Below are positions 60,762-64,000 of a stretch of DNA of 64,000 bases, in pieces (the first letter of the stretch is position 1; every line of letters starts with the position of its first letter). The stretch lies in NCBI GenBank assembly GCA_016192135.1, contig JACPUR010000035.1:186001-250000 (forward strand), given 5' to 3'. A model generated the notes under the pieces. That model did no database searches. It worked only from the letters and a program-made list of their open reading frames with translations, and was not told the DNA's origin. The position numbers and the translations under genes were made by a program. This stretch comes from Candidatus Tectomicrobia bacterium (GTDB lineage Bacteria > UBA8248).

Positions 60762-61721
60762 ATGGCTTTGGGCACCCGAGGGCGGCCTTCCCAAATTCTC
60801 CGGGCTCATTCCGATATTTTGGGCCAGGTCGGGGGAACGCCCCTGGTCCGCCTGAGGCGCCTTCCGGACCCCAAGGGAGCGCGGGTCTACGCCAAGCTGG
60901 AGCAGTTCAACCCCGGCGGGAGCGTCAAGGACCGCATCGCGCTCAGCATGATTCTCGACGCCGAGCGGCGCGGCCTGCTCAAGCCCGGGGGCACCATCCT
61001 CGAGCCCACGAGCGGCAACACGGGCATTGGGTTGGCCATGGTGGGCGCCGTCCGGGGCTACCGCGTGATCATCGTCCTGAGCGAGAGCATGAGCCATGAG
61101 CGCCACTCGCTGCTCACGGGCTACGGCGCGCAGGTGGTCTTCAGCCCCGGCGAGGGGGGCATGATGGGCTCGGTGACCAAGGCCGAGGAGCTGCTCGCCG
61201 GGAATCCGGACTACTTCATGCCCCAGCAGTTCAACAACCCGGCCAATCCCGAGATCCACCGCCGCACCACCGCCCGCGAGATTCTCCGGGACATGGGCGC
61301 CCAGCGCGTGGACGCCTTGGTGGCGGGGGTCGGCACGGGGGGCACCATCACCGGGGTGGGCGAGGTGCTCAAGGCCAAGCGTCCGGCCACCCGCGTCGTG
61401 GCGGTCGAGCCGGCCGGCTGCGCCATCCTCTCGGGTGGCAAGCCCGGGCCGCACCAGATCCAGGGGATCGGGGCCGGCTTCGTCCCCCGCGTGCTGAACC
61501 GCGAGGTGATCGACCAGGTCGAGGTGGTCACGGACCAGGAGGCCTACGACCATTCCAAGGAGCTCGGCCGGGGGGAGGGGATCGCGGCGGGCATCTCGGC
61601 CGGGGCGGCCGTCTGCGCCGCGCTGCGGGTGGCGCGCGGGATGTCCCCCGAGGAGAACGTGGTCGTCGTCCTGCCCGACGGGGCGGAGCGGTATTTCAGC
61701 CTGGAGCCTTATTTCCGCTGA
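60762..61721 (+). CDS. Cysteine synthase, CysK-like
   Basis: 319 residues, fold type II PLP enzyme. PLP lysine is Lys56 in NPGGSVKDR; the substrate loop is TSGNTG (83-88); the phosphate loop is GVGTGGTITG. It forms cysteine from an activated serine and a sulfur donor. The overall sequence (LGQVGGTPLVRLRRLPD; GGKPGPHQIQGIGAGFVP) is closest to CysK, which uses O-acetylserine and sulfide. It opens a cluster with a sulfur carrier and a second synthase, so an alternative donor is possible. Confidence 0.93.
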   Translation: MALGTRGRPSQILRAHSDILGQVGGTPLVRLRRLPDPKGARVYAKLEQFNPGGSVKDRIALSMILDAERRGLLKPGGTILEPTSGNTGIGLAMVGAVRGYRVIIVLSESMSHERHSLLTGYGAQVVFSPGEGGMMGSVTKAEELLAGNPDYFMPQQFNNPANPEIHRRTTAREILRDMGAQRVDALVAGVGTGGTITGVGEVLKAKRPATRVVAVEPAGCAILSGGKPGPHQIQGIGAGFVPRVLNREVIDQVEVVTDQEAYDHSKELGRGEGIAAGISAGAAVCAALRVARGMSPEENVVVVLPDGAERYFSLEPYFR

Positions 61722-61794: not shown

Positions 61795-62073
61795 ATGCCG
61801 GTTGTGGTCCGGATTCCCACCCCCCTGCAGGAGTTCACCCAGCAGAAGGATGCCGTCGAGGTCGATGGCGAGACGGTGAAGGACGTCCTCGCCAACCTGG
61901 ACAAGAAGTGCTCCGGCATCCGCCAGCGCCTCTACGACGAGAGCGGGAAGCTCCGCCGCTTCGTCAACATATACGTGAACCAGGAGGACATCCGCTTCCT
62001 CCAGGGCGAGGGGACGAAGGTGAAGGGGGGCGACGAGGTGTCGATCGTCCCGGCCATCGCGGGCGGCCGCTGA
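61795..62073 (+). CDS. ThiS/MoaD/CysO-type sulfur-carrier protein
   Basis: 92 residues, ubiquitin-like beta-grasp. Blocks are VVVRIPTPLQEFTQQ, TVKDVLANLDKKCSGIRQRL, RRFVNIYVNQEDIRFLQGEG and DEVSIVPAIAGG. The pattern resembles mycobacterial CysO. In active carriers the C-terminal Gly-Gly is adenylated and thiocarboxylated; here the protein ends Gly90-Gly91-Arg92, so trimming by one residue would be needed. It lies between cysteine synthase and an E1-like gene and before a JAMM peptidase. Confidence 0.9.
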   Translation: MPVVVRIPTPLQEFTQQKDAVEVDGETVKDVLANLDKKCSGIRQRLYDESGKLRRFVNIYVNQEDIRFLQGEGTKVKGGDEVSIVPAIAGGR

Positions 62074-62086
62074 TCCGGAGGACGGC

Positions 62087-62785
62087 GTGACCCTGACCCA
62101 GGACCAGGTCCAGCGCTACAGCCGCCACTTGCTCATGCCGGAGATCGGAGGGCAGGGACAGGCGCGGCTGCTGGAGAGCGCGGTCCTGATCGCCTTCTCC
62201 CCGGAAGCGCGGGGCGCGGCCGAAGCCCTGGCGGCCTACCTGGCGGCGGCGGGGGTGGGGAGGATCGGCTGGTGGGCGGCGGGCGCCGGGGAAGCTCCCG
62301 CGCCGGGCTCGCTGGCCGGGCTGCTGGACGCATACGCCCCGGGCGGCGCCGGGGCGTCCGTCCGGTCGATCAACCCGGACGCCCGCCTCGAAACGATCGG
62401 GAGCCGGGACGAAGCGAAGCGGCGGGACGATGGCCTGGTCCTGCTCCTGGGCGAGGACGCCCGCCTTGAGGCGTTCGGGCGGGAGTGCCGGGACGGGGGG
62501 AAGGCGGTCCTCCGCGGGCGGCTCTCGGGCATGGCCGGCGCCGTCCTGGCCGGTGAAGCCTCGGCCCTTGGCTTTGAACCGGCGGAGGCCGGGGAGGAAC
62601 TCCCGCCGGCCCCGGCGGAAGGCGCGCTGGGCGCGCTGCTGGCGGCGGGGGCCATCCGGGCCCTGCTGGGGGAGGCCCCGGCCGAAGCGGGCTTTGATTT
62701 CGAAAAAGGCCGCCTGTGGGGCCGTCCGGTTCCCCAGCGCGCGGCGCGGGGTGCCGCCCCCGCCGCGGAAGCCTTTTCACAGTAG
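62087..62785 (+). CDS. Degenerate MoeB/ThiF-like (E1-type) protein, predicted inactive
   Basis: 232 residues from a GTG 13 bases after the carrier stop, with GGAGGA upstream. The start (LTQDQVQRYSRHLLMPEIGG) and AYLAAAGVGRIGWW match the N-terminal part of MoeB/ThiF adenylyltransferases, and SINPDARLETIG and GALGALLAAGAIRALLGE match later segments. The ATP-binding GxGGxG is replaced by AFSPEA (36-41), the Asp-x-Asp and Asn/Arg positions are Ala/Gly/Pro, and neither the catalytic Cys nor the CxxC zinc pairs exist; only one Cys remains. The frame is intact. I infer a pseudoenzyme. Confidence 0.8.
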   Translation: MTLTQDQVQRYSRHLLMPEIGGQGQARLLESAVLIAFSPEARGAAEALAAYLAAAGVGRIGWWAAGAGEAPAPGSLAGLLDAYAPGGAGASVRSINPDARLETIGSRDEAKRRDDGLVLLLGEDARLEAFGRECRDGGKAVLRGRLSGMAGAVLAGEASALGFEPAEAGEELPPAPAEGALGALLAAGAIRALLGEAPAEAGFDFEKGRLWGRPVPQRAARGAAPAAEAFSQ

Positions 62786-62798
62786 AGGAAGGTTCGTG

Positions 62799-63737
62799 AT
62801 GGCTGAGAGCATGATTCAGGCTCCTGCCCGTTCGTTCCGCAGCATCGACGACGTCCCGATCCTCAAGCTGATCGGGAACACCCCCCTGCTGCGCATCCGG
62901 CTGTTCGAGCGGGAGTTCCCGCATGTCGAGGTCTGGGCCAAGGCTGAGTGGTTCAACCCGGGTGGATCGGTGAAGGATCGGCCCGCCCTCTCCATGGTGA
63001 GGGACGGCCTCGAGCGGGGCCTCCTGCGGCCCGGCATGACCCTACTGGATTCCACGAGTGGCAACACCGGGATCGCCTACGCCATGATCGGGGCCGCGCT
63101 CGGCATCCCGGTGAAGCTCGTCCTCCCGGCGAACGCGAGCCCGGAGCGCAAGGGCACGCTCAAGGCCTACGGCGCCGAGATGGTCTTCTCGAGCGCGCTC
63201 GAGGGCTCGGACGGCGCGCAGCGCCTCGCGCGCCGGATCTACGAGGAGGACCCGGAGGCCTATTTCCTGCCCTGCCAGTACGACAACCCCGCCAACCCGC
63301 TCGCCCACGAGAACGGGACGGCGGTGGAGATCCTCGAGCAGACGGGCGGCCGCGTGACCCACTTCGTGGCCGGCCTCGGCACGACGGGCACCCTGGTGGG
63401 CACGGGGCGGGGGCTCAAGAAGCGCAAGGCGGACGTCAAGGTGTGCGCGGTGATGCCCGCCGAGCCCTTCCACGGCCTCGAGGGCATGAAGCACATCCCC
63501 ACGGCCATCCGCCCGGGGATCTACGAGGAGGCGGTGCACGATCAGCTCATCCTGGCCGGGACCGAGGACAGCTATCAGCTGGCCGAGCGCCTGGCGCACG
63601 AGGAGGGGCTGTTCGTGGGCCACTCTTCGGGGGCGGCCCTCGTGGGCGCGCGCGAGGTGGCGGAGCGCGCCCGGAGCGGCGTCATCGTGGTCATCTTCCC
63701 CGACAGCGGGGATCGGTACCTGAGCGAGATGCATTGA
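62799..63737 (+). CDS. CysM-like cysteine synthase
   Basis: 312 residues. PLP lysine Lys59 (NPGGSVKDR), TSGNTG (86-91), and the block THFVAGLGTTGTLVGTGR, which closely follows mycobacterial CysM. That enzyme uses O-phosphoserine and CysO thiocarboxylate. The region after it (HGLEGMKHIPTAI) differs from the Arg-containing loop that selects phosphoserine there, so donor and acceptor need testing. ATG 62799 follows AGGAAGG. It lies between the E1-like gene and the JAMM peptidase. Confidence 0.9.
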   Translation: MAESMIQAPARSFRSIDDVPILKLIGNTPLLRIRLFEREFPHVEVWAKAEWFNPGGSVKDRPALSMVRDGLERGLLRPGMTLLDSTSGNTGIAYAMIGAALGIPVKLVLPANASPERKGTLKAYGAEMVFSSALEGSDGAQRLARRIYEEDPEAYFLPCQYDNPANPLAHENGTAVEILEQTGGRVTHFVAGLGTTGTLVGTGRGLKKRKADVKVCAVMPAEPFHGLEGMKHIPTAIRPGIYEEAVHDQLILAGTEDSYQLAERLAHEEGLFVGHSSGAALVGAREVAERARSGVIVVIFPDSGDRYLSEMH

Positions 63738-63751
63738 GAGGATTGCTCGAA

Positions 63752-64000
63752 TTGCGGCTGACGAAGGAGCAGGCGGAGATGATAGGCGGGCATGCCCGGG
63801 CGGCCTATCCCGACGAGTGCTGCGGCGTCATCGTGGGCCCCCCCGCCGGGGAGTCGAACGGCGACCCGCGCCGCCTGCGGGTGCACCTCTTGCGGAACCT
63901 TCAGAACGAGATGCACGCGAAGGACCCCGAGTCCTACCCCCGAACGGCCCGGCGCGCGTTCCTCATCGATCCGTTCGCGCTGGAGCGCATCCTGCGCGAG
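63752..64000 (+). CDS. Mec-like JAMM/M67 metallopeptidase, N-terminal part
   Basis: The first 83 residues, running off the right edge. The YPDECCGVIVGPP start motif and the NLQNEMHAKDPESYPRTARRAFLIDP block are typical of the M67 Mec family, whose mycobacterial member releases cysteine from the CysO-cysteine adduct. The zinc-binding HxH...D motif would lie beyond the window. Start is a TTG at 63752 about ten bases after GAGAGG; another TTG at 63743 is possible. Confidence 0.8.
   Translation, partial: MRLTKEQAEMIGGHARAAYPDECCGVIVGPPAGESNGDPRRLRVHLLRNLQNEMHAKDPESYPRTARRAFLIDPFALERILRE

Follow-up and report, generated by a model that had tools for sequence, protein, structure and literature searches.

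The inactive E1-like protein and its operon

The window, i.e. the whole stretch of 64,000 nucleotides analyzed here, ends inside an operon with the gene order cysK - cysO/moaD - pseudo-E1 - cysM - JAB - E1 - rrf2, which combines a sulfur carrier, a cysteine synthase and a JAB protease as in the CysO-CysM-Mec+ gene set. The following features are referred to below:

60762-61721, + strand: cysteine synthase, CysK-like, 319 aa (TIGR01139, 412.5 bits; cut-off 350.95)
61795-62073, + strand: CysO/MoaD-like sulfur carrier, 92 aa, C-terminus AIAGGR (PF02597, 67.1 bits)
62087-62785, + strand: pseudo-E1 gene of MoeB/ThiF fold, 232 aa, GTG start; proposed inactive, arm-donating subunit
62105-62179, + strand: N-terminal arm/arginine-finger segment of the pseudo-E1, residues 7-31, QVQRYSRHLLMPEIGGQGQARLLES (from invariant positions and dN/dS)
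62799-63737, + strand: cysteine synthase, CysM-like, 312 aa (PF00291; best NCBIfam model TIGR01138 cysM, 341.6 bits, below its cut-off of 394.2)
63743-64000, continuing past the window to the equivalent of 64243, + strand: JAB/Mec+-like metalloprotease (from reading and frame conservation)
Equivalent of 64240-64956, past the window (L002:6240-6956; G000:C35:250240-250956), + strand: catalytic E1, 238 aa (from its motifs)

The pseudo-E1 frame is free of internal stops and separated by 13 bases each from the carrier gene on its 5' side and the cysteine synthase gene on its 3' side. The Pfam model PF00899 (ThiF) matched residues 11-61 only (profile positions 1-48) with 13.9 bits, below the gathering cut-off of 28.1, and the NCBIfam MoeB/UbaA models aligned to residues 2-61; the segment RYSRH...GGxGQxRLL is retained. 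In the alignment, none of the 14 pseudo-E1s of the lineage (see below) possesses the GxGGLG loop (P-loop) or the acidic, Asn, Arg and Lys nucleotide residues, including those of the Arg73/Lys86/Asp130 type (MoeB numbering) that are present in the operon E1; the cysteine of the SC...AGV motif and both zinc CxxC pairs are likewise missing from all 14, and the alignment contains no conserved cysteine at all.

The single-chain AlphaFold2 model of the pseudo-E1 nevertheless comprises a complete E1 adenylation domain (pLDDT 79.6, pTM 0.79), for which Foldseek returned an E-value of 5e-11. Superposition on MoeB (1jwa_B) gave Z 18.7 with an rmsd of 3.5 over 196 residues, tied with APPBP1/NAE1 (Z 18.5) and SAE1 (Z 18.2); among the SAE/NAE entries listed, the best-matching chain was almost always the inactive subunit, SAE1 or APPBP1. 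Residues 1-20 were modeled with low confidence (pLDDT 52-56), as would be expected if the arm needs a partner. Compared with a functional MoeB/ThiF-type E1, the protein has the fold and the RYxR arm but lacks a sufficient Pfam score, the ATP site, the cysteine and the zinc pairs. The description in an earlier note on this DNA, i.e. an intact frame, a retained N-terminal MoeB/ThiF signature and lost catalytic residues, was therefore borne out: the frame is also open in 14 homologues at the same operon position, the matches to PF00899 and the MoeB-type models cover the N-terminal ~61 residues, and the loss extends to all 14 copies; the structural comparison with MoeB proposed there yielded the full E1 fold.

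The carrier ends one residue past its Gly-Gly motif (AIAGGR or AIAGGL) in all 14 genomes that contain the pseudo-E1 (window 62044-62073; L033-L045). It may represent a precursor that needs trimming by the neighboring JAB protease before activation, as has been described for QbsE/QbsD.

Complementary loss in the operon E1 and its distribution

The PF00899 search of the window's genome (96.8% complete) produced a single match, the operon E1 located 1.5 kb beyond the pseudo-E1; five ThiS/MoaD-family matches and MoaE are encoded in the same genome. The operon E1 contains the glycine loop, the DxD, NLxRQ, K and SDN residues, the cysteine and both CxxC motifs. Its start overlaps the JAB stop (ATGA) and the protein begins with MTLAERLARSSVLVVGAGGLGSP at beta-strand 1, without the ~24 N-terminal residues including RYxRH that open the full-length E1s of the lineage; the PF00899 match starts at profile position 13-21 in every copy of the operon E1 versus position 1 in those full-length proteins. 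A hidden upstream arm exon or a frameshift was considered and rejected, as the JAB stop overlaps or directly precedes the start, and the upstream sequence contains no in-frame RYxR. The operon E1 was modeled with moderate confidence (pLDDT 61); the model matched MoeB/ThiF with Z 22, and its best chain among the SAE/NAE entries listed was almost always UBA3/SAE2.

The lineage corresponds to the GTDB phylum UBA8248 (PMC10839748). In a phylum-level set, assigned to Nitrospinota/UBA8248 through the named MAGs in it, the pseudo-E1 was present in 14 of 18 genomes from four genera, always at the same operon position, and the split was complementary without exception: each of the 14 pseudo-E1s has the arm, and the operon E1 beside it is arm-less. 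As every pair comes from a MAG of one and the same family-level lineage, the 14 genomes do not equal 14 independent events. Among the four genomes without the pseudo-E1, the operon is interrupted by contig ends in G001 and G003, whereas cysK-cysO-cysM-JAB is preserved in G002 and G005 without either the pseudo-E1 or the operon E1 (in G002, only a C-terminal E1 remnant is retained); full-length E1s are encoded elsewhere in both. The pattern of 14 genomes with both and two with neither corresponds to a Fisher p of 0.008, kinship being ignored. The rrf2 gene beside the lost E1 of G002 (L253:9593-9998) has an internal deletion of ~16 codons and a change of frame; decay or misassembly at this end of the operon could therefore contribute to the E1 loss there. 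In G005, whose main cysO operon contains neither E1 nor pseudo-E1, a full-length, armed E1 directly adjoins a separate cysteine synthase gene (L046, G005:C71:3007-4692).

Outside the lineage, the strong PF00899 matches listed in a survey of 232 genomes started at profile positions 1-3, with G166 as the sole exception. The arm-less E1 of this genome (L190:5693-6769, G166:C7) is sister to the operon E1s in the tree (100/99) and is located near a JAB gene, with a lipoate-ligase-like gene between them; a pseudo-E1 was not found in the G166 genome. An E1 can therefore lose its arm while having no partner, or the arm-less form without a partner was the earlier state; this is the main caution to the interpretation given below. 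The alignment-based scan of 85,000 species recovered 12 loci of the lineage and 68 other closest matches. A second pseudo-E1 family was not found, all 68 matches from outside the lineage having an intact P-loop in the pattern-based scan, which would miss very divergent pseudo-E1s; a single-sequence scan of genome contigs with the pseudo-E1 found no relatives. In the E1 tree, the pseudo-E1s form one long, monophyletic branch (100/100) outside all E1s.

Selection on the arm and a proposed two-gene E1

Within the operon, dN/dS was 0.05 for the carrier, 0.15-0.20 for the operon E1 and 0.28-0.32 for the whole pseudo-E1 gene. In the latter, the values for two genera were 0.04 and 0.08 over residues 7-31 versus 0.39 and 0.375 outside them, and invariant positions were concentrated in the arm (14 of 25 versus 20 of 186 elsewhere, p 8e-7). 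The full-length E1s of the lineage, which served as control, displayed no such contrast (12 of 25 versus 107 of 205). Constraint on the nucleotide sequence at the 5' end of the gene was rejected as a cause, since pS was similar inside and outside the arm. Selection thus keeps the pseudo-E1 as a fold that carries the arm.

Position 13 of the pseudo-E1 corresponds to MoeB Arg14 and ThiF Arg11, the second arginine of RYxR, which comes from the neighboring subunit and contacts the gamma-phosphate; this finger arginine has been reported as catalytically non-essential in MoeB and ThiF and is missing in TcdA (PMC13139853). The arm reads RYSRH in 12 of the 14 genomes and RYSHH in the other two (G010, G012), where the finger arginine is replaced by histidine. 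This substitution fits the reported non-essentiality in MoeB/ThiF and the absence in TcdA, and suggests that the arm as a dimer element matters more than the finger arginine itself. Another E1 (L209, G090:C2:86997-87683) has the arm with cysteine at the finger position (RYGCQ) and provides a natural test of the need for the arginine.

As the sole other E1 of the genome is located in the operon and lacks the arm, and as the arm of the pseudo-E1 is constrained, the latter is best read as the inactive half of a heterodimeric E1: judged from sequence and predicted folds, the two proteins most probably form a heterodimeric sulfur-carrier E1. Two separate genes encode the halves, an inactive, armed one without the ATP site and a predicted active, arm-less one that has it. 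With several carriers and MoaE in the genome and no other E1 detectable by PF00899, the pair is presumably functional. MoeB and ThiF have been described as homodimers, in which the N-terminal RYxR arm of each subunit enters the ATP site of its neighbor; in the proposed complex these tasks would be split. The catalytic subunit would contribute the P-loop, the Arg/Lys/Asp ATP residues, the cysteine and the zinc site that it has kept, and the pseudo-E1, a dimer half by its fold, would insert the missing arm in trans, so that each heterodimer would contain one active site and presumably require both subunits. The pair would adenylate the C-terminal glycine of the CysO/MoaD-like carrier of the operon, probably serve the other ThiS/MoaD carriers of the genome as well, and the activated carrier would feed CysM/JAB-dependent cysteine synthesis. 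On the other hand, with the finger arginine reportedly not needed for catalysis in MoeB/ThiF and missing in TcdA, the arm-less E1 might work without the pseudo-E1.

The earlier note had instead interpreted the pseudo-E1 as a scaffold or regulator for carrier-cysteine synthase complexes; in this reading, it would bind the carrier, the cysteine synthases or both and organize sulfur transfer without being an E1 subunit. The position of the gene between cysO and cysM and the retention of the fold without an ATP site would agree with such a function, yet it predicts neither that the operon E1 misses exactly the arm retained by the pseudo-E1, nor that constraint is concentrated on this arm, nor the joint absence of both E1 halves where cysO and both cysteine synthases remain. 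We therefore consider it unlikely as the sole explanation and favor the E1 half, although a scaffold role may exist on top of it. The expectation in the note that activation is supplied by an E1 encoded elsewhere was correct in that another E1 is needed, but the only other one is encoded in the same operon; the proposed genome search for an intact MoeB/MoeZ did recover a catalytic E1, albeit this arm-less protein. Similarly, the gene is indeed located between the proposed partners cysO/moaD and cysM, but the likeliest partner, the E1, follows two genes on, past the window.

Quite improbable is the assumption that the pseudo-E1 mainly regulates another full-length E1 of MoeB/MoeZ type and that the operon E1 acts as a lone, arm-less homodimer. 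A full-length E1 is encoded in most of the 14 genomes with a pseudo-E1, and G166 has its arm-less E1 unaccompanied by a pseudo-E1. However, there is no full-length E1 in the window's genome or in G007, and the pseudo-E1 is also absent from the two genomes in which full-length E1s occur without an operon E1. That the pseudo-E1 is a decaying, functionless MoeB duplicate held in the operon by polarity is very improbable: its post-arm residues do evolve faster than the operon E1 (dN/dS ~0.38 versus 0.15-0.20), but the 14 copies from four genera are without frameshift or stop, residues 7-31 are under strong purifying selection at unreduced pS and the model is well folded, in line with the argument of the note against random decay and with the dN/dS comparison among relatives suggested there, which indicated purifying selection overall and the strongest in the arm.

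It is fairly likely that this bacterial lineage evolved, independently of the eukaryotes, an obligate heterodimeric E1 encoded by two genes from MoeB-type proteins. The catalyst subunit would then have lost its arm and the arm-donor subunit its active site, whereby the arrangement of SAE1/NAE1 would have been recreated. For the origin of the asymmetric two-part E1s of ubiquitin-like pathways from symmetric bacterial homodimers, ancient eukaryotic proteins have so far been the main basis of inference; bacteria apparently took the same step separately, with small proteins of ~240 aa each. Since operons lacking both halves and genomes encoding full-length E1s occur in the same lineage, this step is directly testable, i.e. 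which parts of the dimer are dispensable, what role is played by the arm and by its arginine, nominally non-essential, and whether a dimer can do with a single active site. The pseudo-E1 also illustrates concretely how the function retained by a pseudoenzyme can be read from the site of selection.

Comparison with known E1 systems

Animals, plants and fungi provide the other known examples of such a division of labor, in their enzymes for the activation of SUMO and NEDD8. In these heterodimeric E1s of eukaryotes, SAE1-UBA2 and NAE1(APPBP1)-UBA3, two genes encode an inactive half that keeps the fold and the arm and a catalytic half (PMC12355090), and the predicted folds of the pseudo-E1 and the operon E1 match the corresponding halves. 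In contrast, the operon E1 is a bare adenylation domain of 238 aa without the catalytic-cysteine half-domains and the ubiquitin-fold domain, and is therefore not classed as a canonical eukaryotic-type E1; its substrate, moreover, would be a sulfur carrier instead of a conjugated modifier. When the pseudo-E1 profile was compared with the PDB, only bacterial ThiF/MoeB and Uba4 were matched. The inactive adenylation domain (IAD) of BilD, SAE1 and NAE1 were consequently rejected as the sequence source of the pseudo-E1, and the likeness to SAE1/NAE1 looks convergent. The open-access literature searched yielded no description of a heterodimeric E1 encoded by two genes, either for bacteria or for a sulfur-carrier pathway.

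The yeast ct6A synthase Tcd1-Tcd2 is also an obligate heterodimer of ThiF fold, in which Tcd2 receives the finger Arg59 from the inactive Tcd1 and depends on this subunit for solubility and activity (PMC13139853); it differs as a eukaryotic tRNA-modifying enzyme with larger C-terminal domains and more of the active site kept in both subunits. BilD of the BilABCD system is a bacterial E1 with an inactive and an active adenylation half (PMC11354881), but both belong to a single fused chain that also includes a Cys domain, and the BilD substrate is ISG15-like without connection to a sulfur-carrier pathway.

MoeB and ThiF of E. coli and mycobacterial MoeZ belong to the same fold and superfamily, activate MoaD, ThiS or CysO and reach into the active site of the neighboring subunit with their arm; MoeB and ThiF, however, carry arm and active site in every subunit of their homodimers, and MoeZ has an additional rhodanese domain. 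In mycobacteria, CysO is activated by MoeZ and then used by CysM and Mec+ (PMC3227635). The gene neighborhood is of the kind described as operon type 4c by Iyer et al. 2006 (ThiS/MoaD, E1, JAB, cysteine synthase; PMC1779556). Whereas the E1 of that type is a single protein with a fused rhodanese domain, in the operon described here the E1 is divided between two proteins, neither of which carries rhodanese, and an Rrf2 regulator and a second cysteine synthase are encoded as well.
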